DNA of 52,019 nt from Chitinophaga pinensis (GTDB taxonomy: Bacteria > Bacteroidota > Bacteroidia > UBA4408): positions 1-52,019 of the forward strand of contig CAMBZU010000015.1 of the NCBI GenBank assembly GCA_945872355.1, given 5' to 3'. Positions 5,737 through 28,699 of the stretch are shown here, piece after piece. A program made the translations under genes and the position numbers. A model generated the notes under the pieces. That model was not told the origin of the DNA, searched no databases, and worked only from the letters and a program-made list of their open reading frames with translations. How positions within the stretch are numbered: position 1 is the first letter of the stretch; every line of letters starts with the position of its first letter.

Positions 5737-6717
5737 TTAATTTTTAGGTGCTGAAATTGTTTTGTTAATTTCATCTATCCAAAGCTGTTGCCCAAAGGAA
5801 TTCCAATGCGAATCGCTATAATGAAATACATTGTCTTTTGGTGCTGAAAGCAATTGATAGGCATTGATACAGGTCATTTTTAGGTTTGGATGTTGTTGAA
5901 TGCGTTCAATTAAATGGTTGTATTTTTTACCATTATAATTATAAATACTTGCTGCATTAGGTATGATTGAGAGATAAACCTCTTCAAACCCAAGTTTTAA
6001 AACATCTTGCTGTACCATGTTTAAATTGTTAACTATTTCGCTAATTTCTTCTTCGCTGATGCTGCTGTAGCTTGATGATGTTATACTTTCCTCAATTGTT
6101 TCATTCAAATAGAGGCGTTCAGTACCATTAGGTTTTGCAATTCTACTATCGTACCTGTTAAATAATTTTAAGTAAATCAGCGACTTTATTTCTTTCAAAT
6201 TCAATAAGAAATCGAAGTTAGTTAAAAGGAATTGTATATTATCTTCTGCGTTCAATTTTATTTCGTGATTAATTGGCGGGATGTATTTTTCTCCAATACC
6301 AACTAAATTTCTTATTTTCAATCGCCAACGCGCATACCTTTCTGTTGTTTCAATAACAAGTATATTTTTTTTACCTGATTGAAAAGATGGAATCGTATCT
6401 GGAACATAATCCCAATCGATATGATCAAAGTTTTTAGCTATTAAATTATCCTTGCTAATACCATTTAAATAACTGTCTCCAATGATTGTTAATCTTATAT
6501 TCGACTGTGATTTTACCTTGTTTATTTTAGCTTGATTGCTGGTGTTAATTCTGAATTTGGGATGGTTGCTAAAAAAATATAAATCGCCATAACGATAAGG
6601 AGATGGAACAATAGCAATAACATTATTAAACCATTTTGAATAACTAACAGCTGCCATCACAACAATAATGCTGATACCTGAAATTAGCGCGAATATTTGA
6701 ATCGTTCTTTTTATCAA
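5737..6717 (-). CDS. SGNH/AlgJ-AlgX-like partner of an MBOAT acyltransferase
   Basis: The 326-residue protein has one N-terminal membrane anchor (about 7-27) and an extracytoplasmic SGNH-like domain. The nucleophile block is GDS at 80-82 (IIGDSYLNG). The C-terminal D302-x-H304-W block (DSHWNSFG) is the pattern seen in AlgJ/AlgX-type proteins. Such proteins act with an MBOAT protein to O-acylate an exported polysaccharide. Its start is a TTG that overlaps the stop of the MBOAT gene (TTGA, 4 bp), indicating translational coupling. The substrate is unknown. Confidence 0.8.
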   Translation of the reverse strand: MIKRTIQIFALISGISIIVVMAAVSYSKWFNNVIAIVPSPYRYGDLYFFSNHPKFRINTSNQAKINKVKSQSNIRLTIIGDSYLNGISKDNLIAKNFDHIDWDYVPDTIPSFQSGKKNILVIETTERYARWRLKIRNLVGIGEKYIPPINHEIKLNAEDNIQFLLTNFDFLLNLKEIKSLIYLKLFNRYDSRIAKPNGTERLYLNETIEESITSSSYSSISEEEISEIVNNLNMVQQDVLKLGFEEVYLSIIPNAASIYNYNGKKYNHLIERIQQHPNLKMTCINAYQLLSAPKDNVFHYSDSHWNSFGQQLWIDEINKTISAPKN

Positions 6718-8096
6718 AATTGAAAGTAGATAAATTGTTTCAAATTAAATTCACCAAATAAATAAGCAAGCGCAAACAACATTGTTGCTATTAGCATTTG
6801 AAATATCGGTTTTACAATATGTTTTGACCATTCCTTTTTTTCTGAACGAATCAATAAAGCAATCAATAAAAAACAGAAAGAAAATTCAATTTCATTAAAC
6901 ACTTTTGGCAAGCTATTTTCAAATGATATACTACCTAAATGTTTTATAGCTAAAGCCGCATCTTCTAGCGTATTTGCTCTGAAAAATATCCATGCAAATG
7001 TGGTTGCACAAAAAACAAAAAGTATTTTAAATGAAGGGGAAATGCTTAAAGAAAAATGTTTTTTAAATACATTTTCTAATAGGAGTAAAATGCCGTGCAA
7101 AGCGCCCCAAATCATGAAATTCCATTTTGCGCCATGCCAAAAACCACTTAGTATAAATACAATAAAAATATTTCTATAGCGCATTAATTCACCCTTTCTA
7201 TTGCCACCAAGTGGTTTGTATAAATATTCTTTAAACCAACTCGATAATGAAATATGCCATCTCGACCAAAACATAGAAAATGAGGATGATAAATAAGGGC
7301 TGTTGAAATTTTGCATTAAATCAATGCCCATTATTTTTGAAACACCAATGGCAATAGCTGAATAGCCCGAAAAATCACAATAAATTTCAAAAGCAAAAAA
7401 TACACTTGCAATAAGTACCGATAGGCCATTAGCATGTGGCAAGTCATTAAAAACGGGATCAACAAACAACGCAAGCCTATCGGCAATCACCACTTTTTTA
7501 AATAAACCAATGCTCATTAATAACAAACCTTGTGCAGCAAAATTACCGTTAAAGGAAATGTTGTTTTTAATTTGAGGAAGTAAATTTTGTGGTCTTTCAA
7601 TGGGACCAGCCACTAATTGTGGGAAATACAAAACGTAAATACTATAATCCAATAAATGATGTTCAGCTTTTTGCTTGCCGCGATATACTTCAAACGTATA
7701 GCTCATGGCTTGAAAGGTATGAAAGGATAAGCCAATCGGTAATATAATTTCGAGCAAAGGCAATTGCGCACTGCTATGGAAAGTAGCAAAAAGTGCGTTT
7801 ATATTTTCACTAATAAAGTTGAAATATTTAAAGAAAAACAGGATGCCTAAATTAGCAGAAATGCTTACAATCAGCCACTTTTTTTTGTGCAAAATACTTT
7901 GCTCAATCTTTTTTCCTGCAATAAAATCAATACCAATAATTGCAAAAAGTATAAGTAAATAAACAGGCTTAAATACCATGTAAAAATAGCAACTTGCAAT
8001 AAACACCCATGTTTTTCTCCATGGTTTAGGCATGCTAAAAAGCAGTAAAAAAAATGCACAAAAAAACAATATAAACTGCAAAGAGTTAAATAGCAT
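6714..8096 (-). CDS. MBOAT family O-acyltransferase (AlgI/DltB-like)
   Basis: Polytopic inner-membrane protein of 460 residues that would move an acyl group across the membrane for O-acylation of a surface polymer. Family blocks: YFPQLVAGPIERP (about 157-169), CDFSGYSAIAIG (about 240-251), RWHISLSSWFKEYLY (about 279-293) and SGFWHGAKWNFMIWG (about 317-331). H321 corresponds to the essential His of AlgI. It forms a two-gene unit with the SGNH protein downstream (4-bp overlap). A second MBOAT/SGNH pair lies at 22557-24918, but the two differ in sequence and in partner motif. Confidence 0.93.
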   Translation of the reverse strand: MLFNSLQFILFFCAFFLLLFSMPKPWRKTWVFIASCYFYMVFKPVYLLILFAIIGIDFIAGKKIEQSILHKKKWLIVSISANLGILFFFKYFNFISENINALFATFHSSAQLPLLEIILPIGLSFHTFQAMSYTFEVYRGKQKAEHHLLDYSIYVLYFPQLVAGPIERPQNLLPQIKNNISFNGNFAAQGLLLMSIGLFKKVVIADRLALFVDPVFNDLPHANGLSVLIASVFFAFEIYCDFSGYSAIAIGVSKIMGIDLMQNFNSPYLSSSFSMFWSRWHISLSSWFKEYLYKPLGGNRKGELMRYRNIFIVFILSGFWHGAKWNFMIWGALHGILLLLENVFKKHFSLSISPSFKILFVFCATTFAWIFFRANTLEDAALAIKHLGSISFENSLPKVFNEIEFSFCFLLIALLIRSEKKEWSKHIVKPIFQMLIATMLFALAYLFGEFNLKQFIYFQF

Positions 8097-8187: not shown

Positions 8188-9318
8188 CTATTCTTCCTCT
8201 TTATTTTTTAGCTGCATCAATAAGTTGTAAGCACCTTTTAAAACAAAGTTTTTGTTGAGTAAAGCATTGTCCATGATTACTTCTGTATGACCATTTTCAG
8301 TATTGCCCAATTTAACTTCAACCATTTGAAATGTATTTTTGCTTAAGGCAATAAATGCGTAATTTACGTTTTCGAATCTTACAAGCGCTTCATCGGGAAG
8401 CACACTTGCCATGTTACTATTGATTTCAAGATCGGCATTCATAAACATACCCGGGATAAGCGTTTTATCATATTTTTCAAAATGACAATGTACTTCTACA
8501 CTGCGCTCTGCAGAAAGATCTTTACCTATTAAAATGATTTCACATGGGAATTTTATTTCTGGTTTGTGGTTGGTGTAGGCCATCAATTTTTGACCAATAA
8601 AAATTTTATCTAAATCTTTTTCATAAATAGTTAAACCCAAATGTATATCTGTTGGATTTACAAGCTCAAATAGCACATCACTTGGGTTAACATATTTGCC
8701 AATATTTACATTTACATGAGATACATAACCATCAATAGGTGAATGTATATCAATACTGCGCGATATATTATTTTCGTTTAAGTTTTCAGGATTTATTCCA
8801 ATGAGTTTCAATTTTTCATGTAAAGATTTTAAAATTATTTTTTGATTTTGATAATCGGCCTCTGCTTGTTGAAATAATTTATCGCTGCTTGCTTTGCTTA
8901 AATTAAGTTCTTTTTGTCGTTTAAAATCGGCCTCCAAAAACTTTAAATTAGAGGCTGTAATTAAATATTCTTGCTGTAGCTGAATGTATTGCTGATCCTC
9001 CATGCTGGCTATAATTTCTCCTTTGGCAATATGCATACCGGGTAACAATTTAGTTGATTTTAAAAAGCCACCTAATGGTACACTTATTGAAACCATATTT
9101 TGAGGTGGAACATCAATAATTCCATTTACTTTTAACACTGAAGAAATAGGTTGTGAGCTAATTTTACCTGTGCTAATGGTCATGTTTTTTAATTGCGCAT
9201 CCGTAAGTTCAACTGTAGTTTTAACAGCAGCATTTACTTCTTTTTGTTCTGTTTTATTTTCTGTACCACAAGCCATTAATACAACCGCGCTTAATAAAGA
9301 AATAATATATTTAGTCAT
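8188..9318 (-). CDS. Periplasmic adaptor lipoprotein of an RND metal efflux pump (CusB/CzcB-like)
   Basis: Membrane-fusion protein linking the inner-membrane RND pump to the outer-membrane channel. The 376-residue protein has a lipobox (VLMAC, Cys17), so it is probably anchored in the inner membrane's outer face. It then has a lipoyl/barrel-sandwich hybrid part (about 60-110 and 190-215), an alpha-helical hairpin between them (about 110-180) and a beta-barrel and membrane-proximal domain to the C-terminus. It follows the pump gene by 10 bp and is the last gene of the operon. No metal-binding N- or C-terminal extension is visible. Confidence 0.9.
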   Translation of the reverse strand: MTKYIISLLSAVVLMACGTENKTEQKEVNAAVKTTVELTDAQLKNMTISTGKISSQPISSVLKVNGIIDVPPQNMVSISVPLGGFLKSTKLLPGMHIAKGEIIASMEDQQYIQLQQEYLITASNLKFLEADFKRQKELNLSKASSDKLFQQAEADYQNQKIILKSLHEKLKLIGINPENLNENNISRSIDIHSPIDGYVSHVNVNIGKYVNPSDVLFELVNPTDIHLGLTIYEKDLDKIFIGQKLMAYTNHKPEIKFPCEIILIGKDLSAERSVEVHCHFEKYDKTLIPGMFMNADLEINSNMASVLPDEALVRFENVNYAFIALSKNTFQMVEVKLGNTENGHTEVIMDNALLNKNFVLKGAYNLLMQLKNKEEE

Positions 9319-9328
9319 AATTAGTATT

Positions 9329-12300
9329 TTATTTATTGGTTAAATAATTTAATTCAATAATGCTATTATTTAGTTTTGAAATAGCATTTATATACTCTAC
9401 TTTAATATTTACGGCTTGGTTGGTGAGTACTACCCAATCTAAATAATTGATATTTCCGCTCTGGTATTGCGCTGTGGCTGCATTTATTGTTTCTTCAGCA
9501 TTTTTTAAGCCTTTAACTTCGTAGTAATTTACCACACTTGCGTTAGTAATATAGTCTTGATAAGCCTTTTTATAATTCAATTGAAATAATGCAGTGCTGC
9601 TATTCAAATTATTTTCTGCTATTTGTTGATGAATTTTAAGAACATTTATTTTAGTCTTTTGAGCTCCAAAAAATAAAGGTATTCCAAAGCCTGCCTGAAA
9701 TGATTGAAATCTTTTTGAAGGAGCGTAATAATTATTATATGGTCCATTTCCTATAATACTTGAATTGCTATAGCCAACCAATAAATCGGGCAATAAAAAT
9801 GATTTTTCTAAGTTTAATTTTGATTTACTTAATTCCTGTTGCTGCGCTAATTGTAATATAAATGGATGTTGCTTAACCATCAAATCATCATTAATTAAAG
9901 GCGTATCCATTACTGTTTTTTTTGTATCCGGAATTAATGCTGTTTTTGCATTCAATAGTAAGTTAAATGTAGCAAGTGCATTTTTATATTCTTGTTCTAT
10001 TTTTTCCAACTGTAATTTAATTTGTGCTGTTTGCATTGCTGCAGTGTTTTTTTCAAGGATATTACTTTCTCCTTTTTCATATTTGAGTTCAGCATTTTTT
10101 AAAAATACAGTATACATACTGTCCATGCTTTGCAAAACAAGTGTTAATTGCGAAATTTGAACCAAGCTATAATAAACAACACTCAATTCTTTTTTTAATT
10201 CAGCTTTTCTTATTTCAAGCGCTAAGCCTGCATTCTTCCATTCATTTGTTAGTATTTTTTTTTGATTTGTATAAACCGTTGGGAATTTTAAACTTTGAGC
10301 TATACCAAATTTAGTATCCATATAAGCGCTGTTAAATTGCCCATATTCGCCTGTAATTGATGTTTGTGGCAAGTCCCACGCACTGTGTTTAAGTTTTGTG
10401 TAAGCTTCAACATTTAATTTATCTGATTTTAGCGATAAATTATTTGTAATGGCAGTATCAATTGCAGCCTTCAATTCAATGGTATTTTGTGCATCTACAT
10501 TGCTTGGTAATAATGATATTGACACAAATAGGATAAGCGCAGATACAATAGGTTTTGTTTTAAATCCTTTCTCGAAAAAAATATATAAAATGGGTAAAAC
10601 AAAAAGGGTTAAGAAAGTTGCTATTAACAGGCCCCCAATAACTACTGTTGCTATAGGTCGCTGAACTTCAGCACCTGCACCATTGCTTATAGCCATTGGC
10701 AAGAATCCTAAGGATGCAACAAATGCAGTCATTAAAACAGGACGTAATCTAATTTTTGTGCCCATTAAAACAATTTTCCGCGTATCTGTCCAACCTTCTT
10801 TTTTAAGCCGATTAAATTCGGCAATCAACACAATTCCATTAAGCACAGCAACACCAAACAAAGCTATAAAGCCAACTCCAGCAGAAATGCTAAAAGGCAT
10901 ACCGCGCCATGCTAAAGCAAAAATACCACCCACAGCCGAAAGTGGAATGGCTGAGTATATTAATAAACCTTGTTTAATAGAATTGAATGAAAAATAAAGC
11001 AATATGAAAATTAATAATAATGAAATCGGCACAGTAATGCCTAATCTCGCTTTTGCTGCATTTAAATTTTCAAACGCGCCACCATAGGTTACATAATAAC
11101 CTGCTGGGAATTTTATCTTCTTTTCAATTTTTTGTTGTAGCTCTGTTACTATTGTTTGTACATCACGCCCAGCAACGTTAAATCCAATAATGATTCTTCG
11201 TTTAGCATCTTCACGTTGTATTTGATTAGGTCCTTCTTTTAATTCAACAGCTGCTAATTGATACAAAGGTATTTGAGCGCCATTGGGTGTTGCAATTAAT
11301 AAATTCTTGATGTCATCTATATTTTTGCGTTGTGCTCCATTTAATCGAACTACCATATCAAAACGTTTTTCTCCTTCATACACAGCGCCTGTAGATTGCC
11401 CTGCTAGCCCAGTGTTTACAATTTTATTAATATCACTTATGTTTAGGCCGTATTGTGCAATAGCTGGTCTATTATAACTAATAATAATTTGAGGCATACC
11501 TGCAACAGGCTCAACATATATGTTTTTTGTTCCTTCTACACTGGCAGAAATATCACCTAATAATTTGGCGTAATGAGCCAATGTATCCATATTTTCACCA
11601 AATATTTTACAAACTACATCTTGCTTAGCACCTGTCATTAATTCATTAAAACGCATTTGCACTGGATACTGAAAACTAGTTGTAATACCAGGTATATCAG
11701 AAACAGCTTTGCTCATTTTTTCTGATAACTCAGGGAATGTTTTTGCTGAGGTCCATTCTTTTTTATCTTTTAAAATAATCATCATATCGGCCGCTTCCAT
11801 AGGCATTGGATCAGTTGGAATTTCGCCGCTACCTATTTTCGTAACTACCTGCTCTACTTCTGGAAAATTTTCTTTTAAAATTTTGGCCGCACGTTGTGTA
11901 CTTTCAATGGTTGTATTTAAATTGCTGCCCATCAAAACACGCGTTTCTACTGCAAAATCGCCTTCCTCCAGGGCCGGTATAAATTCACCTCCCATGTTTG
12001 ATAGCACATAAATAGAAATTGCAAATAAGGTAAATGCGGTAGTTATTACTGTTTTTGGAAAATTTAAAACCTTGTTCAATGCTTTTTGAAAATGCCGTTC
12101 AAAAAAGGCCATCATTTTATCAGAAATAGTTTTTTTATGACTGATTTTTTTACTCATGATTAATGCACTCATCATAGGCACATATGTTAAAGAAAGAATA
12201 AATGCACCCAACAAGGCGAAGGCAACAGTTTGCGCCATAGGTATAAACATTTTGCCTTCAATGCCCTGCAATGCAAAAGTGGGTAGGTAAACAATCAATA

Positions 12301-13675
12301 TTATTATTTGTCCGAATACCACACTGCGCGCCATTTTTGTAGAAGCGCCACTCACTTCATCATCCATTTGTTGTTGTGATAGTTGATTAACAGAAGCAAA
12401 ATGTTTACTGTGGGTGAGTTGATGCAACACTGCTTCAACTATAAATACAGCGCCATCTACAATAAGTCCAAAATCCAGTGCCCCTAAACTCATTAAATTT
12501 CCAATCACACCAAAAATATTCATTAAAATAACAGCAAATAACATGGCTAGTGGGATCACAGAAGCCACTATAAACCCTGCTCTTAAATTTCCTAAAAACA
12601 ATATCAGTACAAAAAGTACAATTAATGCACCTTCCATTAAATTGGTTTCCACAGTGCCAATGGCATTGTTTACCATTTTAGTGCGGTCTAAAAATGGTTC
12701 TAAGATTACTCCTTCAGGCAGTGTTTTTTGAATTAGAGCTACCCTGTCTTTTACGTCTTTAATTACTTCACTGCTGTTTTCTCCTTTCAACATCATCACC
12801 ACTGCTCCGGCTACTTCTCCTTGGTCATTATAACACATAGCGCCATATCTTGTGGCACTGCCATAGCGAACTTCAGCAACATCACGAATTAATAAGGGAG
12901 TTCCATTGGAAGTGTTTTTTACAAATATTGCTTTTATATCTTGTATACTTCCTACCAATCCTTCACTTCTGATGTATAAAACTGTGGGCCCCTTTTCGAT
13001 ATAGGCACCGCCAGTATTTTGATTATTGTTTTCGAGTGCCTTAAATACATCATTGATGGTAATATTAAAAGCTTTTAATTTGGCTGGCTCAACAGCGATT
13101 TCGTATTGTTTTAATTTACCGCCAAAACTACTAACATCTGCCACGCCTTTTACACCAAGCAATTGTCTACGAACCATCCAATCTTGTATGGTACGTAGTT
13201 CCATCGCATCGTATTTTTTTTCATATCCTGCTTTTGGTCTAACTGTGTACTGGTAAATTTCACCAAGGCCTGTTGTTACTGGTCCCATAGCTATTGAACC
13301 AACTCCTTGTGGCATGTCAGCTTGCACAATTTGTAATCGTTCTGCAACTTGCTGGCGAGCCCAATAAACATCAACTCCATCTTCAAAAACGATAGTTACT
13401 AATGATAAGCCAAACCTCGAAAAACTTCTAATTTCGTGCAAGCCAGAAATATTACTATTGGCTAATTCTATTGGAAACGTCACCAAACGCTCAATATCAG
13501 TTGCCCCTAATGATGGAGCAACTGTTATAACTTGTACCTGATTATTTGTAATATCAGGCACGGCATCTATAGGTAATTTAGTAAATTGATAACTGCCATA
13601 ACCGATTAGGGCAATGATAAACAAGCCTATAATGAGTTTATTATTAATTGAAAATGCAATAATTTTATTCAACAT
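9329..13675 (-). CDS. CzcA/CusA-type heavy-metal RND pump fused to a TolC-like outer-membrane factor
   Basis: 1448 residues. About 1-1040 is a complete RND proton antiporter with two sets of transmembrane helices. TM4 carries DFGLIVDGAVFIVE with D401, D407 and E414, close to the D402/D408/E415 set of CzcA, which favours divalent cations (Zn, Co, Ni) over Cu/Ag. After TM12 a second signal-peptide-like segment (about 1043-1063, ending NVDAQ) leads into about 385 residues of outer-membrane factor. That part has long helical repeats (QTAQIKLQLEKIEQEY, QSGNINYLDWV). This fusion is known in Bacteroidota. It is flanked by the DUF2231-like gene (3 bp upstream) and the adaptor. Confidence 0.93.
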   Translation of the reverse strand: MLNKIIAFSINNKLIIGLFIIALIGYGSYQFTKLPIDAVPDITNNQVQVITVAPSLGATDIERLVTFPIELANSNISGLHEIRSFSRFGLSLVTIVFEDGVDVYWARQQVAERLQIVQADMPQGVGSIAMGPVTTGLGEIYQYTVRPKAGYEKKYDAMELRTIQDWMVRRQLLGVKGVADVSSFGGKLKQYEIAVEPAKLKAFNITINDVFKALENNNQNTGGAYIEKGPTVLYIRSEGLVGSIQDIKAIFVKNTSNGTPLLIRDVAEVRYGSATRYGAMCYNDQGEVAGAVVMMLKGENSSEVIKDVKDRVALIQKTLPEGVILEPFLDRTKMVNNAIGTVETNLMEGALIVLFVLILFLGNLRAGFIVASVIPLAMLFAVILMNIFGVIGNLMSLGALDFGLIVDGAVFIVEAVLHQLTHSKHFASVNQLSQQQMDDEVSGASTKMARSVVFGQIIILIVYLPTFALQGIEGKMFIPMAQTVAFALLGAFILSLTYVPMMSALIMSKKISHKKTISDKMMAFFERHFQKALNKVLNFPKTVITTAFTLFAISIYVLSNMGGEFIPALEEGDFAVETRVLMGSNLNTTIESTQRAAKILKENFPEVEQVVTKIGSGEIPTDPMPMEAADMMIILKDKKEWTSAKTFPELSEKMSKAVSDIPGITTSFQYPVQMRFNELMTGAKQDVVCKIFGENMDTLAHYAKLLGDISASVEGTKNIYVEPVAGMPQIIISYNRPAIAQYGLNISDINKIVNTGLAGQSTGAVYEGEKRFDMVVRLNGAQRKNIDDIKNLLIATPNGAQIPLYQLAAVELKEGPNQIQREDAKRRIIIGFNVAGRDVQTIVTELQQKIEKKIKFPAGYYVTYGGAFENLNAAKARLGITVPISLLLIFILLYFSFNSIKQGLLIYSAIPLSAVGGIFALAWRGMPFSISAGVGFIALFGVAVLNGIVLIAEFNRLKKEGWTDTRKIVLMGTKIRLRPVLMTAFVASLGFLPMAISNGAGAEVQRPIATVVIGGLLIATFLTLFVLPILYIFFEKGFKTKPIVSALILFVSISLLPSNVDAQNTIELKAAIDTAITNNLSLKSDKLNVEAYTKLKHSAWDLPQTSITGEYGQFNSAYMDTKFGIAQSLKFPTVYTNQKKILTNEWKNAGLALEIRKAELKKELSVVYYSLVQISQLTLVLQSMDSMYTVFLKNAELKYEKGESNILEKNTAAMQTAQIKLQLEKIEQEYKNALATFNLLLNAKTALIPDTKKTVMDTPLINDDLMVKQHPFILQLAQQQELSKSKLNLEKSFLLPDLLVGYSNSSIIGNGPYNNYYAPSKRFQSFQAGFGIPLFFGAQKTKINVLKIHQQIAENNLNSSTALFQLNYKKAYQDYITNASVVNYYEVKGLKNAEETINAATAQYQSGNINYLDWVVLTNQAVNIKVEYINAISKLNNSIIELNYLTNK

Positions 13676-22556: not shown

Positions 22557-23477
22557 CTAATACAATAATCTCTCACTTTTTATGTAATTAAAAAGATCAT
22601 TGGTGTATAATTTCGCTCCTTCAAAATTGAGATGCACTGCATCATTGAAATATTCTTTTTGTTTGTATGTTATTGAGTTTTCTGAATAACCATAATAAAT
22701 GATGTTAGGTCCAGCTAAATTTTTAATTCTTTGTTCAAAGTAAAAATTTCTACTGTGAAAACGAGGCATAAATACTATCATTAACTTAATGTGTTCTCGT
22801 GCACAAGTTTCAATAAACGATTTAAACTTTTTTCTTTTGGAGGGTAATTCTTTGGTGATATCATATTGCCTATTTCCATTGTAATATCCACCAGGGAAGT
22901 TATTTGTTCTCAAACTATTTATCATAGAACCACATGGCATTATTCTATCATTTGCCGCAAATTGACGTGTTCGAAAATCAAGATTGCTTTTTCCCAATTG
23001 ATGTAAAATAAAAAGAGAACTTAAATACTTATTTTTCTCGCCCCTTGCAATTAATTCATCTTTAATTTGTTGATACTTCACTAATGGATAAAGTCTGTCT
23101 AAACGAAAATTCACTACTTTATCGAAATATAATTCTCCAGGTTCATCTACCGAAAGTACAAGAAGCTTTGGCTTTTTATTTTTATTTAAAATTAATTGCC
23201 TTAGCACGAATTCTTGATACTCAATATCAGATCCAGGTGAAGATAAATTATAAGCTTTGCATTTTAAGGAATCGCCTAATTGTTTTGCATAAATACCAAA
23301 GGAGGAAATAGAAGAACCAAATATTAATATATCATGATTAAATTTTCCTTGTAATACATCCTCCAATTTTTTATCTACTTCTAAAGAAGGGGCATTGTTA
23401 ACTATTGGAATAAATAGCTTATCGAATGCCCAAAAGCATATTACAAATAATAATAATTTTAGTAAGAACTTTTTCAT
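22557..23477 (-). CDS. SGNH-like protein, partner of the second MBOAT
   Basis: 306 residues. One N-terminal membrane segment (about 4-26) anchors an extracytoplasmic SGNH-like domain: nucleophile block FGSS at 53-56 and the C-terminal D279-x-x-H282 pair (NDAVHLNFEGA). This DxxH type differs from the DxHW type of the protein at 5737-6717. It is the last gene of the FkbH/ACP/MaoC/SDR/MBOAT/SGNH cluster and follows the MBOAT gene by 1 bp. A role in transferring or removing an acyl group on a surface glycan is inferred. Confidence 0.75.
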   Translation of the reverse strand: MKKFLLKLLLFVICFWAFDKLFIPIVNNAPSLEVDKKLEDVLQGKFNHDILIFGSSISSFGIYAKQLGDSLKCKAYNLSSPGSDIEYQEFVLRQLILNKNKKPKLLVLSVDEPGELYFDKVVNFRLDRLYPLVKYQQIKDELIARGEKNKYLSSLFILHQLGKSNLDFRTRQFAANDRIMPCGSMINSLRTNNFPGGYYNGNRQYDITKELPSKRKKFKSFIETCAREHIKLMIVFMPRFHSRNFYFEQRIKNLAGPNIIYYGYSENSITYKQKEYFNDAVHLNFEGAKLYTNDLFNYIKSERLLY

Positions 23478-23478
23478 G

Positions 23479-24918
23479 CTAAAATTGAAAATAAATAAAT
23501 TGTTGTTCCTTATTATTGTAAATGAAAATCAAAGCAACCAAAATAAAATAAAATAGCCATCTTACTACTTGTGGCCATTTAATACCAAAATTTTGCAAAC
23601 CATGTGATGCGTTTTTTTGTGACCATTCAATACTTAATAAAATAATAACTGCTGGAAACTGACTTTTGTAAAGTGTTGGTATTTGAAAGGTTTCAAGACT
23701 AACTAAGCGCATTAAATAAGTCACTGCTTGTTGAATTGATTGAGCTTTAAAAAATACATTGGTTAACATGATCAAAAGAAATAAGCCCAACATATTTTTA
23801 TAATCACTTAACTTTTGAATCAAAGTTTGCTCCTTGTTTTTTTTCTTTTTCGATAGCATAGTGCCCATGATAATTGAAGGCACGTAATATAAACCATGCA
23901 AAGCACCCCAAACCACAAAAGTCCAATTAGCACCATGCCATAAACCTGAAATAAGAAAGGTTGTTATGATTCCAACAAACAAACTTAGTTTAGGATAATC
24001 TCTTAAATGAATTGAAATTGGTGTAAATATATAATCGGTGAGCCACGATGTGAGTGAAATATGCCATTTGCGCCAAAATTCTGAAACACTTTGAGAAAAA
24101 TAAGGGAAATCAAAATTCTTAGTAATATTAAAACCTAACAATTTGGCAATGCCTATGGCCATATCCGAATATCCCGAAAAATCAGCATAAAGTTGAATAC
24201 TAAAATAAAATGCACCTAACAACAAAATATTTGGTTGCATGGTTAAATAACCGTCAAATATGGGTAAAGTGGCAGCAGCTAAATTATCGGCCACCACAAT
24301 TTTTTTGAACAAGCCCCATAAAATTTGTCTTAACCCATCCGTAGTTTGTGAATAATCAAATTTAATCTCTTTCTCTAATTGTGGAATCAGCGTTTTTGCT
24401 CTATCAATAGGACCAGAAATTAAACTAGGAAAAAAAGCAATATGATTGGCAAATAGTAATAAGTCTATACGAGCTTTTGCTTTTCCATTTTTTACATCAA
24501 GTATATAACTTATTGCTCTAAATAAATAAAAGCTTATTCCCAAGGGGAGTATGATTTGTAAAACTGATAAGTTTGTTTTAAAACCAAAAGAATCAAGTAG
24601 ATTTATAAAACTTGAAATAAAAAAGTTGGTATACTTAAAATAGACTAAAATCCCAATGGAAACTATTATGTTTAAGGCAAATACAATGCTTTTACTTTTT
24701 TCATTAATTGTTTTTGAAATATAATTAGCAGAAATATAAGTGACTAATGTTACTCCTATCAATAAAAACAAGAATTGCCAATCCCACCAGGCATAAAAAA
24801 AATAGGAACCTATTAATAATATTATGTTTCTAATTTTAGTACTTCTTGCTGCTGCTAACCAATATAAAAAGTAGAAAAAAACAAAAAATATTGCAAATGG
24901 AATTGAATTAAAAATCAT
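23479..24918 (-). CDS. MBOAT family O-acyltransferase in the ACP cluster
   Basis: 479-residue polytopic membrane protein. Family blocks: FFPSLISGPIDRAKTL (about 162-177), YADFSGYSDMAIGIAK (about 244-259), KWHISLTSWLTDYIFTP (about 284-300) and SGLWHGANWTFVVWGALHG (about 324-342) with H328 at the expected essential position. It sits 3 bp after an SDR gene and 1 bp before the SGNH gene, so it is translated with the enzymes that would make its donor. I infer that it takes an acyl group from the cluster's own carrier protein and delivers it to the periplasmic side. Confidence 0.93.
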   Translation of the reverse strand: MIFNSIPFAIFFVFFYFLYWLAAARSTKIRNIILLIGSYFFYAWWDWQFLFLLIGVTLVTYISANYISKTINEKSKSIVFALNIIVSIGILVYFKYTNFFISSFINLLDSFGFKTNLSVLQIILPLGISFYLFRAISYILDVKNGKAKARIDLLLFANHIAFFPSLISGPIDRAKTLIPQLEKEIKFDYSQTTDGLRQILWGLFKKIVVADNLAAATLPIFDGYLTMQPNILLLGAFYFSIQLYADFSGYSDMAIGIAKLLGFNITKNFDFPYFSQSVSEFWRKWHISLTSWLTDYIFTPISIHLRDYPKLSLFVGIITTFLISGLWHGANWTFVVWGALHGLYYVPSIIMGTMLSKKKKNKEQTLIQKLSDYKNMLGLFLLIMLTNVFFKAQSIQQAVTYLMRLVSLETFQIPTLYKSQFPAVIILLSIEWSQKNASHGLQNFGIKWPQVVRWLFYFILVALIFIYNNKEQQFIYFQF

Positions 24919-24921
24919 TTG

Positions 24922-25644
24922 CTATTTGAGATTAGCTCCTGCATTTATTACCAAATCCAAGCCATTAATTTGATTAGAACTATTTACTAAAAATACCACA
25001 GCATCAGCAGTTTCTTTTGCAGTTAGTATGTTTTTTAAGGGGTGTTCTGCAATCATTTGTTCAATTATTCTTTCATCAGTGTCATTAGTAAAACTTGTTT
25101 GCATAAAACTTGGTGAAACTGTATTAGCGCTAATATTAAATTTAATGTTTTCTGTTGCCCAAACTTTACTTAGTTGTTGTAAATAAGCTTTATTGCAAAT
25201 ATAGCTAGCTGTGCCTAATGGAGGTGTGTTGACCAAAAAGGAAGTTAAAACCGTAATAATTTTACCTGATTTTTTCTTTCTAAAAACATTGATAGCAGCC
25301 TGTGCGATAGCAATAACAGGCAAGATATTGTTTTCAAAATCTGTTTTAAATTCAATAGGAGAAATCTTATGAAAGTATGTTTTTACTGGGTCGCCTTGAT
25401 ATGCATTGTTTATAAGCACATCAACCACTAAATCATTCATTTTATCGCACAATAATTTTACTTCCGAGTCGCTTGTAAAATCGCACTTAATAGCTTTTGT
25501 ATTTTTAAGTTCATTTTCTATTGAACTTGCCTTTTCTAGAGAATGTGCATAGGTAAAGTAAATGAAATTATTTTTTTCGGAAGCAAGATTTCTAACTATT
25601 GCTTCGCCTAAGCCTGAGGTGCCTCCGGTGATTAATATTTTCAT
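24922..25644 (-). CDS. Short-chain dehydrogenase/reductase (FabG/PhaB-like)
   Basis: 240-residue NAD(P)-dependent oxidoreductase. Cofactor motif TGGTSGLG (6-13), NNA motif (79-81), and active-site S135, Y148 and K152 (YICNK) are all present, so it is probably active. In this cluster it would reduce a 3-ketoacyl group, or oxidise a hydroxyacyl group, carried on the ACP encoded two genes upstream. The start overlaps the MaoC-type gene by 4 bp (ATGA). Substrate is inferred from context only. Confidence 0.88.
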   Translation of the reverse strand: MKILITGGTSGLGEAIVRNLASEKNNFIYFTYAHSLEKASSIENELKNTKAIKCDFTSDSEVKLLCDKMNDLVVDVLINNAYQGDPVKTYFHKISPIEFKTDFENNILPVIAIAQAAINVFRKKKSGKIITVLTSFLVNTPPLGTASYICNKAYLQQLSKVWATENIKFNISANTVSPSFMQTSFTNDTDERIIEQMIAEHPLKNILTAKETADAVVFLVNSSNQINGLDLVINAGANLK

Positions 25645-26045
25645 GGTAAAAATCCTATTTGAACTTTTCCTTTTGCAACAGTTTTTTGCAGTGCATTTTT
25701 AAACACAAACTTAAATTCTATTGCATTCACAGAAGAGTATATTTCAAAAACTTTAGCATCAAAAGTAAGTTTATCATTCAAATATACAGGATTATTAAAT
25801 TGAATTTGTTGAGAATGAATAATAATATTTTTAGTAGCTAAACACTCACCCACAAAATACGAAACAAAACCATTTAAAATATTGCCATGCATAACTTTAT
25901 TTTCAAAGCCTTTCTCTTTCGCAAATTCATTATTAGTATGCAATGGGTTAAAGTCTTTGAATGCTGTTAAAAACGAATGGTAAACCTCTTCAGTAACCTG
26001 AAAGTTTAATGCATACTTTTGACCTGCTTCAAACAATGAAATCAT
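25641..26045 (-). CDS. MaoC/PhaJ-like (R)-specific hydratase
   Basis: 134-residue single hot-dog protein. The hydratase signature KDFNPLHTNNEFA puts the catalytic Asp at 31 and His at 36, the same numbers as in characterised PhaJ, and GFENKVMHGNILNGF follows. It would interconvert enoyl- and (R)-3-hydroxyacyl thioesters. The start overlaps the ACP stop (4 bp) and the end overlaps the SDR start (4 bp), so all three are translationally coupled. Whether it acts on CoA or ACP thioesters is open. Coupling to the ACP gene favours ACP. Confidence 0.87.
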   Translation of the reverse strand: MISLFEAGQKYALNFQVTEEVYHSFLTAFKDFNPLHTNNEFAKEKGFENKVMHGNILNGFVSYFVGECLATKNIIIHSQQIQFNNPVYLNDKLTFDAKVFEIYSSVNAIEFKFVFKNALQKTVAKGKVQIGFLP

Positions 26046-26281
26046 TTACTTAAAATACATGTTATCATTTCACCTACATTGGCCCAACTTTGGATTTCTT
26101 TAGAAGTAAACCTTACCTTAAATTTCTTTTCAACAGCTACAACTAATTGAATGTGATTTAATGAATCCCAATCCTCTACATCACTTGCTGTAGTTGATTC
26201 AGATAAGGTAATGCTTTGGTCATCTAAAACATCTTTAAATACTTCTATAATTTGCGTTAAACCCTCTTCTCGTGTTGTCAT
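26042..26281 (-). CDS. Dedicated acyl carrier protein
   Basis: 79-residue acidic four-helix protein with the phosphopantetheine site DSLNHI at Ser40 (VEDWDSLNHIQLVVAVEKKF region). It is more divergent than housekeeping AcpP, which normally carries DSLDTVE, and is embedded in a biosynthetic cluster, so it is a specialised carrier. It lies 2 bp after the FkbH-like gene and overlaps the MaoC-type gene by 4 bp. FkbH proteins classically load a C3 acid onto such a carrier. Confidence 0.9.
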   Translation of the reverse strand: MTTREEGLTQIIEVFKDVLDDQSITLSESTTASDVEDWDSLNHIQLVVAVEKKFKVRFTSKEIQSWANVGEMITCILSK

Positions 26282-26283
26282 AG

Positions 26284-28005
26284 TTATTTATTTTGTATAA
26301 ATGTTTTTTTTGGTTCGAATGTAGTTAAATTTAAAAACCAATAATTTTCTTGTTCTTCGAAACCTAAATTTTTATAGTGATCTTTCACCATATCGTTTTT
26401 TGGGGTAGGTAAATATTCACCCTTTAAAAAGCTTGATCCATTATTTTTTGCAAATGAGACTATAGTATTTAAAACAAAATTTTCCATGCCTCTTTTAAGC
26501 ACTCTGCAGCTCATAAACCATGAGTCAATAAAAAATATTTCTTTACTTATTTTTTCTAATATGATGGCACAAATAAGTCCATTGTCTCCAAACTTATCTT
26601 CTAAGTTGAACGAAAAACTAGCGTAATTTTCATCAAGGCCTATTTGCGCGATAGCTGCTTCATTATATCTAACCGTTCGTAAGTTAAATTGATTGGATCT
26701 TTGCGAAAGCTGTGCTACGCGTGGCGTGTTAAATTTAGTAAATGGCTCAATCTTCGAAACCATATTTAAACTTACTAAAAAGTCATCCTCATTGACAAAG
26801 CTTTGTTGCAATTGCGTGCGTTGTGCTTCAACTTGATATTGCGTGGTTCTTTCAGCATCTAATGCAGAAAAAGAAACTGTTTCAAATAAATTTAGGGTAT
26901 ATAAATACTCTAAATATTCTGCAGGATCTTCAGGCAACTCAGGCACTGTTATCTCAGGAATATGCTCCCTTACCATGTTTCTTTCAAATGGATTATCATC
27001 TAAAAAAACCATCGAATCAAAGCCTATATTGAGTATGCTTTGAATATGTTTGATGTTGGCTGCTTTATTTTCCCAGTTGGCCACAAAAACCGCTATATCC
27101 TCTAGTCTTAACACCATATCAGGGTGCTTCTCAAATGGCTCTTTGGCTATTGACTCTGTGTTTTTGCTGCAAACGGCTAAAATGATTCCTCTATTTTTCA
27201 GCTCTTTGGCCCAATATTGTAATTCACTAAAAGCCTTACCAATTCCTAATCCTCCAATTTGAATATTTTCAATACCATCATCTCCAATGATACCACCCCA
27301 AGTGGTGTTGTCTAAATCTAAGATCAAACATTTTTTTATTTTACCATCATTTGCATTAATAATGGATAAAGTACGAGCTGCTACCTCAGGCAATGCTTCT
27401 ATATTGAGTACCATCTCTGAATTAACATAAACAGACGGTCTAAACATATTGCTTTTGCCAATTTGATTTTGCAAACTTACTAAATCACAAATAAATAAAT
27501 TACCAATACTCGCACTTAAAGCGGATAATTCTATGTTTAATTTACGTTGCTGATAAAGCCATGATGAGATAATTTTATTAGCATAATTTCCAAATATTTG
27601 GTCATCTATTTCAGGGAAATTATAAAGGATAATTTTAGTGGTAAGATGCTGATTAATTGTATTGCAAATTTCTCGTAATTGATTTATCTTATTGTTTGCA
27701 AAGGCAGTCCTGGCTTCTACATTTGTTTTATAAAACTTGTTCAGCAATTTATGAGAAGCATAAAATATAATTACATAGTCTGCTTTAAATTGATATACTT
27801 CTGAATCGGTGTTTAATAATTGTAGTTCGATTTGATTAAAATCCGCCTCAAAAATATCAATATTTAAATGATAATCGTAAGCAAGTCCTCTTAAAGCTAC
27901 ATTTAAAAATTGAGTTGAAGTATCACCCAAAAGGGCTATTTTTATTGTTTTGAACGAGGAGAAATCTTTCTTAATATTTCTTTTTATTTCATTAAAATGT
28001 TTCAT
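26284..28005 (-). CDS. FkbH-like HAD-IIIC protein
   Basis: 573 residues in three parts: an SGNH-like N-terminal domain (about 1-220, LLGDTSTQF), a HAD phosphatase core (LDLDNTTWGG with D230 and D232, AVCSKN, FLDDNPFERN) and a GNAT-like C-terminal domain (about 400-573). FkbH proteins take a phosphorylated C3 acid such as 1,3-bisphosphoglycerate, dephosphorylate it and load the acyl group onto an ACP. Related proteins load D-lactyl units. The adjacent ACP gene fits this. The actual acyl unit here is not known. First gene of the tightly coupled cluster, 49 bp after the PhaC-like gene. Confidence 0.9.
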   Translation of the reverse strand: MKHFNEIKRNIKKDFSSFKTIKIALLGDTSTQFLNVALRGLAYDYHLNIDIFEADFNQIELQLLNTDSEVYQFKADYVIIFYASHKLLNKFYKTNVEARTAFANNKINQLREICNTINQHLTTKIILYNFPEIDDQIFGNYANKIISSWLYQQRKLNIELSALSASIGNLFICDLVSLQNQIGKSNMFRPSVYVNSEMVLNIEALPEVAARTLSIINANDGKIKKCLILDLDNTTWGGIIGDDGIENIQIGGLGIGKAFSELQYWAKELKNRGIILAVCSKNTESIAKEPFEKHPDMVLRLEDIAVFVANWENKAANIKHIQSILNIGFDSMVFLDDNPFERNMVREHIPEITVPELPEDPAEYLEYLYTLNLFETVSFSALDAERTTQYQVEAQRTQLQQSFVNEDDFLVSLNMVSKIEPFTKFNTPRVAQLSQRSNQFNLRTVRYNEAAIAQIGLDENYASFSFNLEDKFGDNGLICAIILEKISKEIFFIDSWFMSCRVLKRGMENFVLNTIVSFAKNNGSSFLKGEYLPTPKNDMVKDHYKNLGFEEQENYWFLNLTTFEPKKTFIQNK

Positions 28006-28054: not shown

Positions 28055-28699
28055 TTATCCAAAATTATAAGAAAAATATCTTTTCTTATTTATTTTATTC
28101 ATTGGTTTCAAAATTTCATAGTCAACATATCTAAACTCAATAGGTATAAAAGTATAACTTTCATCAAAAATATTGTCATAAGCTTTATCATTGCTTAAAC
28201 GGAAAAGCAAATCTTCATTTACACTAAAATCACTTGATGAAATTGTGGTAATTGTGTTTTTTACTTTATGTGCATAAATGCTGCTTGATGATTTGCATTC
28301 ACGATCACTCACTATGCTGATGCATTGTATTTTATCATCTATATAAATGCTATTCAAGCAATTATTGATGTAGCAATTCATATAATCAGTTGTGCTTAAA
28401 AAAACATAGGCTTTGGATGGATATTCCCAATCAATTTTATTAATACCGAACTCTAATTCCAATAAATTTTTAATTTCAATGTTGTTGCTCTGCAAATCCA
28501 AAATGTTATAACGACTCACTAATTTATAAACAATAAGCACAGGAGGTTTATGTTGGGGCATTGTTTCAGGATCGTAACGAAATAATTTTAATTTATCCTG
28601 TCTATAAAATAGTTTCTTTTGCCTTGAAACTACTTCAACTTCCTCTGTCTTCGATAAAGTATGGTGTATTTTCATTAATTTGGCTGTTGTGTCAGTCAT
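28055..28699 (-). CDS. Truncated, catalytically incomplete PHA-synthase (PhaC)-like protein
   Basis: 214 residues that by eye follow class III PHA synthase: KPPVLIVYKLVSRYNILDLQ (51-70), IDWEYP (89-94), KVKNTITTISSSDFS (145-159) and LLFR (164-167). The lipase box, normally GxCxGG with the catalytic Cys, should lie near 128-137 but reads SDRECKSSSS, so the nucleophile context is lost. The protein then stops about 140 residues early, without the catalytic Asp and His. It is either a decaying gene or a small pseudoenzyme. It has an intact frame, an AGGA ribosome site and a -7 box. Confidence 0.65.
   Translation of the reverse strand: MTDTTAKLMKIHHTLSKTEEVEVVSRQKKLFYRQDKLKLFRYDPETMPQHKPPVLIVYKLVSRYNILDLQSNNIEIKNLLELEFGINKIDWEYPSKAYVFLSTTDYMNCYINNCLNSIYIDDKIQCISIVSDRECKSSSSIYAHKVKNTITTISSSDFSVNEDLLFRLSNDKAYDNIFDESYTFIPIEFRYVDYEILKPMNKINKKRYFSYNFG

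Follow-up and report, generated by a model that had tools for sequence, protein, structure and literature searches.

Layout and gene content of the operon

The window analysed here is the whole 52,019-nucleotide stretch of contig CAMBZU010000015.1 from an assembly of Chitinophaga pinensis (GCA_945872355.1). At 22557-28005 it carries six minus-strand open reading frames (ORFs), which encode, in order, an FkbH-family loader, an acyl carrier protein (ACP), a MaoC-type hydratase/dehydratase, a short-chain dehydrogenase/reductase (SDR), a membrane-bound O-acyltransferase (MBOAT) and an SGNH-like protein. We discuss them as a putative carrier-dependent acylation operon, to be compared with the Dlt pathway (DltA, DltC, DltB, DltX and DltD) that D-alanylates teichoic acids in Gram-positive bacteria.

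The FkbH and ACP genes are 2 bp apart, the ACP-MaoC and MaoC-SDR junctions are 4 bp overlaps, and gaps of 3 bp and 1 bp separate SDR from MBOAT and MBOAT from SGNH, respectively; judged from these junctions, there is no room inside the operon for a further gene such as DltX. None of the six genes encodes a ketosynthase, a polyketide or peptide synthase, an oxidase or another acyltransferase. The end of the operon and the convergent gene pdxA are 11 bp apart, and the surrounding genes (mqnC, pdxA, crtD) have housekeeping roles. An earlier note, made from the DNA sequence alone, had described these six genes, their order, their tight packing and their catalytic residues in ACP, MaoC, SDR and MBOAT, and all of the ORFs and residues were found as described.

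The 573-aa loader (26284-28005) consists of an FkbH_N domain, a HAD-IIIC domain (D230/D232) and a C-terminal part with an invariant C500. It matches TIGR01686 at 287 bits (cut-off 147) and PF21211 at 244 bits, and D230, D232, C226, C279 and C500 are unchanged across 85 homologues. The dedicated ACP (79 aa, 26042-26281) has its phosphopantetheine site at Ser40 (26162-26164), matches PF00550 at 26 bits (cut-off 20.8) and shares the surrounding WDS with all of 74 cassette ACPs. The MaoC protein (134 aa, 25641-26045; PF01575, 49 bits) contains the dyad D31/H36, and D31, N33, H36, H53 and G54 are unchanged in 31 homologues; its closest solved structures, 3IR3 and 1IQ6, belong to enzymes that work on 3-hydroxyacyl thioesters. 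The SDR (240 aa, 24922-25644) matches PF13561 at 104 bits and also TIGR01830, has TGxxxGxG at T6-G13, and displays the triad S135/Y148/K152, of which Y148 and K152 are unchanged and S135 is serine in 27 of 32 homologues. The family assignment is firm for FkbH, MaoC, SDR and MBOAT and adequate for the ACP; that of the SGNH-like protein is based on its predicted fold.

The genome encodes a second ACP, an AcpP (59 bits, G000:C48) beside a FabF-like gene, and one phosphopantetheinyl transferase, so the carrier of the operon can become holo and need not serve fatty-acid synthesis. The alternative that it is the only AcpP of the genome, which the earlier note had set against its view of an ACP belonging to the operon, is ruled out by this stronger second ACP.

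Conservation of the gene order

FkbH matches above 500 bits occurred in five of the 60 nearest genomes, the window's own genome counted, and in none of three genomes of the same genus; an FkbH of this type is thus an accessory gene. For comparison, 85 loci were assembled from the best 80 of 370 FkbH relatives, obtained by an FkbH-alignment scan of genome contigs, together with the window and four further loci. The exact order FkbH-ACP-MaoC-SDR-MBOAT occurs in 24 of them, in Flavobacterium, Chryseobacterium, Mucilaginibacter, Pedobacter, Paludibacter, Chitinophagaceae and one Methylobacter genome (L069). The search in other Bacteroidota that the earlier note had called for therefore finds the five-gene order kept beyond close relatives. 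An SGNH-like protein follows the MBOAT in exact-order loci wherever it is callable, the gene after the MBOAT being missed or lost at a contig end in some. In three further loci that hold MaoC-SDR (L018, L038 and L062) the order is permuted or a gene has been added, and an MBOAT lies within the same tight operon in 56 of the 85. Chance clustering of the six genes is ruled out by the recurrence of the gene order. Inside full cassettes the distance matrices of the genes all correlate (r 0.60-0.91), which may merely mirror species relatedness.

The MBOAT/SGNH transfer pair

The MBOAT (479 aa, 23479-24918) matches PF03062 at 76 bits and the DltB model TIGR04091 at 167 bits (cut-off 375). DltB was the sole match of its profile among PDB structures and also the top match of its structure model. 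It has both the catalytic His328 and a C-terminal motif of the FXYXXF type, FIYFQF (23482-23499), whose tyrosine, Tyr476, is kept in 80 of 81 aligned MBOATs, with a gap in the remaining one. In PatA the tyrosine of this acyl-shuttle motif is acylated and the group is then passed to the SGNH partner, and in Dlt the same shuttle operates with the motif located on DltX (PMC12148441).

The extracytoplasmic SGNH-like protein (306 aa, 22557-23477) has an N-terminal membrane helix and no Pfam match. Its AlphaFold model (pLDDT 81.5) adopts an SGNH fold with S56/D279/H282, and the top Foldseek match in the PDB is DltD (6PFX, E 2.9e-5), at a TM-score of just 0.34-0.40. G54, S56 and H282 are unchanged in an alignment of 23 sequences.

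The genome has four MBOATs besides that of the operon. One of them, of the LGG type, also lies in the window, at 5737-8096 on the minus strand, with a 326-aa downstream gene of its own.

Carrier linkage of the MBOAT

In a tree of 90 MBOATs, the window MBOAT falls inside a clade of 54 members (SH-aLRT 99), 51 of which have an ACP upstream in the operon and three of which lie within the same FkbH loci. MBOAT paralogues from the same loci, and those of the window's genome, fall outside this clade. Residues specific to it concentrate at 276-320, where basic residues at 276, 294, 305 and 313 are replaced by Q, T, F and L, and where the YIPLGG segment of other MBOATs becomes FTPLSIAFRDYG; the net charge of 270-322 is about +3.8 in the others versus +0.3 in the clade. 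In the window MBOAT, residues 292-313 (WLTDYIFTPISIHLRDYPKLSL; 23980-24045, minus strand) align with the carrier-docking helix HC of DltB and are without the LGG of acetyl-type MBOATs. The clade-specific segment aligns with DltB F299-N311, within which Met302, Val305, Ile306 and Met309 contact DltC (PMC11035591).

As a control, 119 genomes of the class were searched and 80 background MBOAT loci were collected; a contig end cuts into a few of them. None of the 80 contained an ACP-like ORF (E below 0.05), which rules out an ACP neighbour as a general trait of Bacteroidota MBOATs, and the LGG is kept in 83 of the 84 MBOATs in these loci. In total, MBOATs without LGG comprise 64 that are ACP-linked and 5 that are unlinked, one duplicate entry having been removed, and those with LGG comprise 4 linked and 101 unlinked. 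One of these 4 is the MBOAT of L018, where the ACP is fused to a hexapeptide acyltransferase domain and a different use of acyl-ACP is thereby possible. Together, these sequence features point to an ACP-bound acyl group rather than acetyl-CoA as the probable donor of the window MBOAT.

Two loci outside the FkbH set are recorded here. At L026 (2196-5518, plus strand), a DltC-like ACP and an MBOAT that lacks LGG are encoded together with a 494-aa protein whose likeness to AMP ligases was spotted by eye alone. No other operon outside the FkbH type was found to combine an ACP with such a protein, and this member of the Bacteroidota may have an operon of the Dlt kind. Among the background MBOATs just one is without LGG (YFFIWLAGLNKK); it is encoded at L177 (5731-7197, plus strand), where no ACP is nearby.

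Exchange of tailoring genes

The genes between FkbH and MBOAT vary among loci: there may be none, MaoC and SDR, a class I S-adenosylmethionine-dependent methyltransferase, a VOC protein, or methyltransferase and VOC together. The top curated match of the VOC protein is methylmalonyl-CoA epimerase, an enzyme that works at the alpha carbon. MaoC and SDR co-occur in 33 of 33 loci and occur with VOC in 0 of 18 (Fisher p 5.6e-5, for rows that are not independent). Such exclusion is expected if the alpha stereocentre is, as we infer, removed and then set anew by MaoC and SDR, since an epimerase would then be redundant.

Tailoring genes are swapped between close relatives at one chromosomal site. Two Flavobacterium loci, L031 and L054, are 73-86% identical across the flanks, FkbH, ACP and MBOAT-SGNH, and at the shared site L031 carries MaoC-SDR where L054 carries methyltransferase and VOC. 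Same-site exchange was also seen in Chryseobacterium (L083, L093 and L096) and in L062/L071, and the pair L047/L037 differs in the presence or absence of MaoC-SDR. The three tailoring states require 34 changes when placed on the FkbH tree, versus 40 with shuffled labels, so that states switch very often.

With the tailoring genes exchanged in this way, the same loader and transferase would deliver different groups in sister loci. Loci with no tailoring genes fit glyceryl, and those with methyltransferase or VOC fit O-methylglyceryl or epimerised glyceryl; the reading of the methyltransferase variant is supported by suomilide-type modules, in which carrier-bound glycerate is O-methylated. Whether a system of this kind is widespread in Bacteroidota, with an FkbH-ACP loader and an ACP-specific MBOAT/SGNH exporter that stay constant around an exchangeable module, we regard as an evenly balanced question. 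If so, the esters on surface glycans would vary much as serotypes do, between glyceryl, lactyl, O-methylglyceryl and epimerised forms, and Dlt would be joined by a second carrier-dependent MBOAT route, which the carrier-docking segment of the MBOAT would make recognisable.

Some FkbH loci depart from this plan. In L033, L052 and L060 (Flagellimonas, Ulvibacterium and Maribacter) a KASIII-like protein comes after FkbH-ACP and an MBOAT is missing; L060 also has MaoC-SDR. In L018 (6075-6956, minus strand) the ACP of an FkbH-MaoC-SDR cassette within a polysaccharide locus is fused to a left-handed beta-helix (hexapeptide) acyltransferase domain.

Proposed mechanism and alternatives

We think it reasonably probable that the window operon is a carrier-protein-dependent MBOAT/SGNH acylation system, a Gram-negative counterpart of Dlt, that transfers lactyl onto an exported glycan. 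FkbH enzymes load glyceryl from 1,3-bisphosphoglycerate onto a carrier and, by family, the FkbH of the operon would move the C3 unit as D-glyceryl to the phosphopantetheine of the ACP. MaoC may then dehydrate glyceryl-ACP to the enol of pyruvyl-ACP, which the SDR may reduce to lactyl-ACP; this is the least certain step. Lactyl-ACP would dock at the cytoplasmic HC segment of the MBOAT, where His328, by analogy with PatA and DltB and in keeping with the motifs present here, would pass the acyl group to Tyr476 of FIYFQF. From this shuttle it would reach Ser56 of the SGNH-like protein, which would esterify the glycan. The acceptor is probably O-antigen, capsule or exopolysaccharide, going by the neighbours of related loci: at least 38 of the 85 loci, among them 16 of the 33 with MaoC-SDR, have glycosyltransferase or nucleotide-sugar genes no further than 8 kb away. 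The loading and transfer parts of this proposal are well supported by inference from the sequences, which also favour lactyl as the group delivered.

Several points weigh against the proposal. Each step of the mechanism is a prediction. The route from glyceryl to lactyl comes from chemical logic and an unconfirmed precedent, the lactyl loading module of bryostatin, which tailoring by MaoC and SDR would resemble; a literature search on bryostatin or FkbH lactyl loading gave nothing usable, and one for FkbH together with MBOAT found only cyanobacterial peptide clusters. Ser135 of the SDR is replaced by alanine in 5 of the 32 homologues. Among the four mapped DltC contacts of DltB, Ile306 alone is matched by a clearly hydrophobic residue of the window MBOAT (I303). 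The association of the HC segment with ACP linkage represents few evolutionary events, and a phylogenetically corrected test had four independent pairs and no power. In several FkbH-ACP-MaoC-SDR loci the operon lacks an MBOAT, with KASIII in its place in L060, so acyl-ACP can also serve other uses. There is no polysaccharide gene beside the window operon, and the acceptor genes must therefore lie elsewhere.

The same carrier-dependent transfer might deliver a group other than lactyl if MaoC and SDR treat the C3 unit differently, for instance with the SDR oxidising C3 or another C3-C4 acid being loaded, to give a different hydroxyacyl ester; we consider this possible but rather unlikely. The specificities of FkbH, MaoC and SDR are not readable from sequence, and glyceryl-ACP is oxidised, not dehydrated, in methoxymalonyl pathways. 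However, the operon has neither a ketosynthase nor an oxidase, MaoC and SDR are an obligate pair that excludes VOC, as fits an alpha stereocentre lost and re-set, and the closest solved MaoC relatives use 3-hydroxyacyl thioesters. General 3-hydroxyacyl synthesis was judged unlikely for want of a ketosynthase in the operon.

We find it improbable that the MBOAT and SGNH-like protein form an ordinary acetyl-CoA O-acetyltransferase that merely shares an operon with FkbH-ACP-MaoC-SDR, the latter feeding a different cytoplasmic acyltransferase. The membership of the window MBOAT in the ACP-linked clade, its altered HC segment, the lack of another acyltransferase in the operon and the position of the MBOAT straight after the ACP in loci without tailoring genes all speak against this, whereas the hexapeptide acyltransferase fusion and LGG-type MBOAT of L018 and the loci in which the MBOAT is missing speak for it. 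That the product is a small secondary metabolite or lipid ester, leaving surface polymers unmodified, seems very improbable. FkbH owes its reputation mainly to polyketide and peptide pathways, and KASIII stands beside FkbH-ACP in the Maribacter-type loci, but synthases for polyketides or peptides are missing from the operon, the partner encoded downstream resembles DltD and is an extracytoplasmic protein anchored in the membrane, and many related loci sit among glycosyltransferases.

The interpretation offered in the earlier note is thus partly supported and points largely the right way. Its self-contained FkbH-ACP donor module with an MBOAT/SGNH transfer pair is borne out by the operon, the families and the residues. 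With regard to its candidates for the acyl group, lactyl is favoured here, glyceryl fits sister loci and 3-hydroxyacyl is disfavoured. Lipopolysaccharide, capsule or exopolysaccharide is a possible acceptor, and nothing was found in favour of the T9SS-linked glycan that it had also named. Its observations stand, but its account was without the FIYFQF shuttle motif, the modular variants and the parallel to Dlt; since Dlt follows the same logic of loader, carrier, MBOAT and SGNH, the statement that such a system was not known as described is only partly right.

Comparison with known systems

Like Dlt, the operon has a dedicated carrier, an operon-encoded loader, an MBOAT with a catalytic histidine, a DltD-like SGNH partner and a tyrosine shuttle motif, and its MBOAT and SGNH-like protein best match DltB and DltD. 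Unlike Dlt, which loads its carrier with the ATP-dependent ligase DltA, the window operon has FkbH and no ligase; it includes enzymes that would tailor the carrier-bound group, it has the shuttle motif fused to the MBOAT C-terminus in place of DltX, its host is a Gram-negative member of the Bacteroidota, and its MBOAT remains below the DltB cut-off. Lacking the ligase, DltX and the curated score, it is classed as a variant of MBOAT/SGNH envelope acylation and not as a member of Dlt.

PatA/PatB and AlgI-type systems likewise combine an MBOAT bearing a C-terminal FXYXXF with a separate SGNH protein, but use acetyl-CoA without a carrier, whereas the window operon has an ACP, a loader and an altered HC segment; MBOAT/SGNH pathways other than Dlt were said in 2025 to be without a carrier protein (PMC12148441). 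The FkbH-ACP units of tetronate, methoxymalonyl and suomilide pathways share the loader with its dedicated carrier, and the O-methylation in suomilide modules parallels the methyltransferase variant of the sister loci; here, however, there is no polyketide or peptide synthase, and the acyl group would go to the MBOAT/SGNH pair.

If the proposal is true, these loci represent a carrier-dependent MBOAT/SGNH route in Gram-negative bacteria that is fed directly by a glycolytic intermediate. For the large MBOAT family, the segment that separates carrier-linked members from the others offers a practical criterion of donor type. The swapping of tailoring genes at one site amounts to a natural experiment that links gene content to acyl structure, with a prediction that is testable.

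Other features of the window

At 28055-28699 (minus strand), 49 bp upstream of FkbH, lies a gene for a shortened, 214-aa class III polyhydroxyalkanoate (PHA) synthase-like protein. It covers positions 13-220 of the 350 of TIGR01836 and looks like a remnant; the genome has no other PhaC match. Further away, at 8188-13675 (minus strand), a 1448-aa protein combines an AcrB/CusA-type pump with an outer-membrane efflux (OEP) domain, and its gene adjoins one of the HlyD type.

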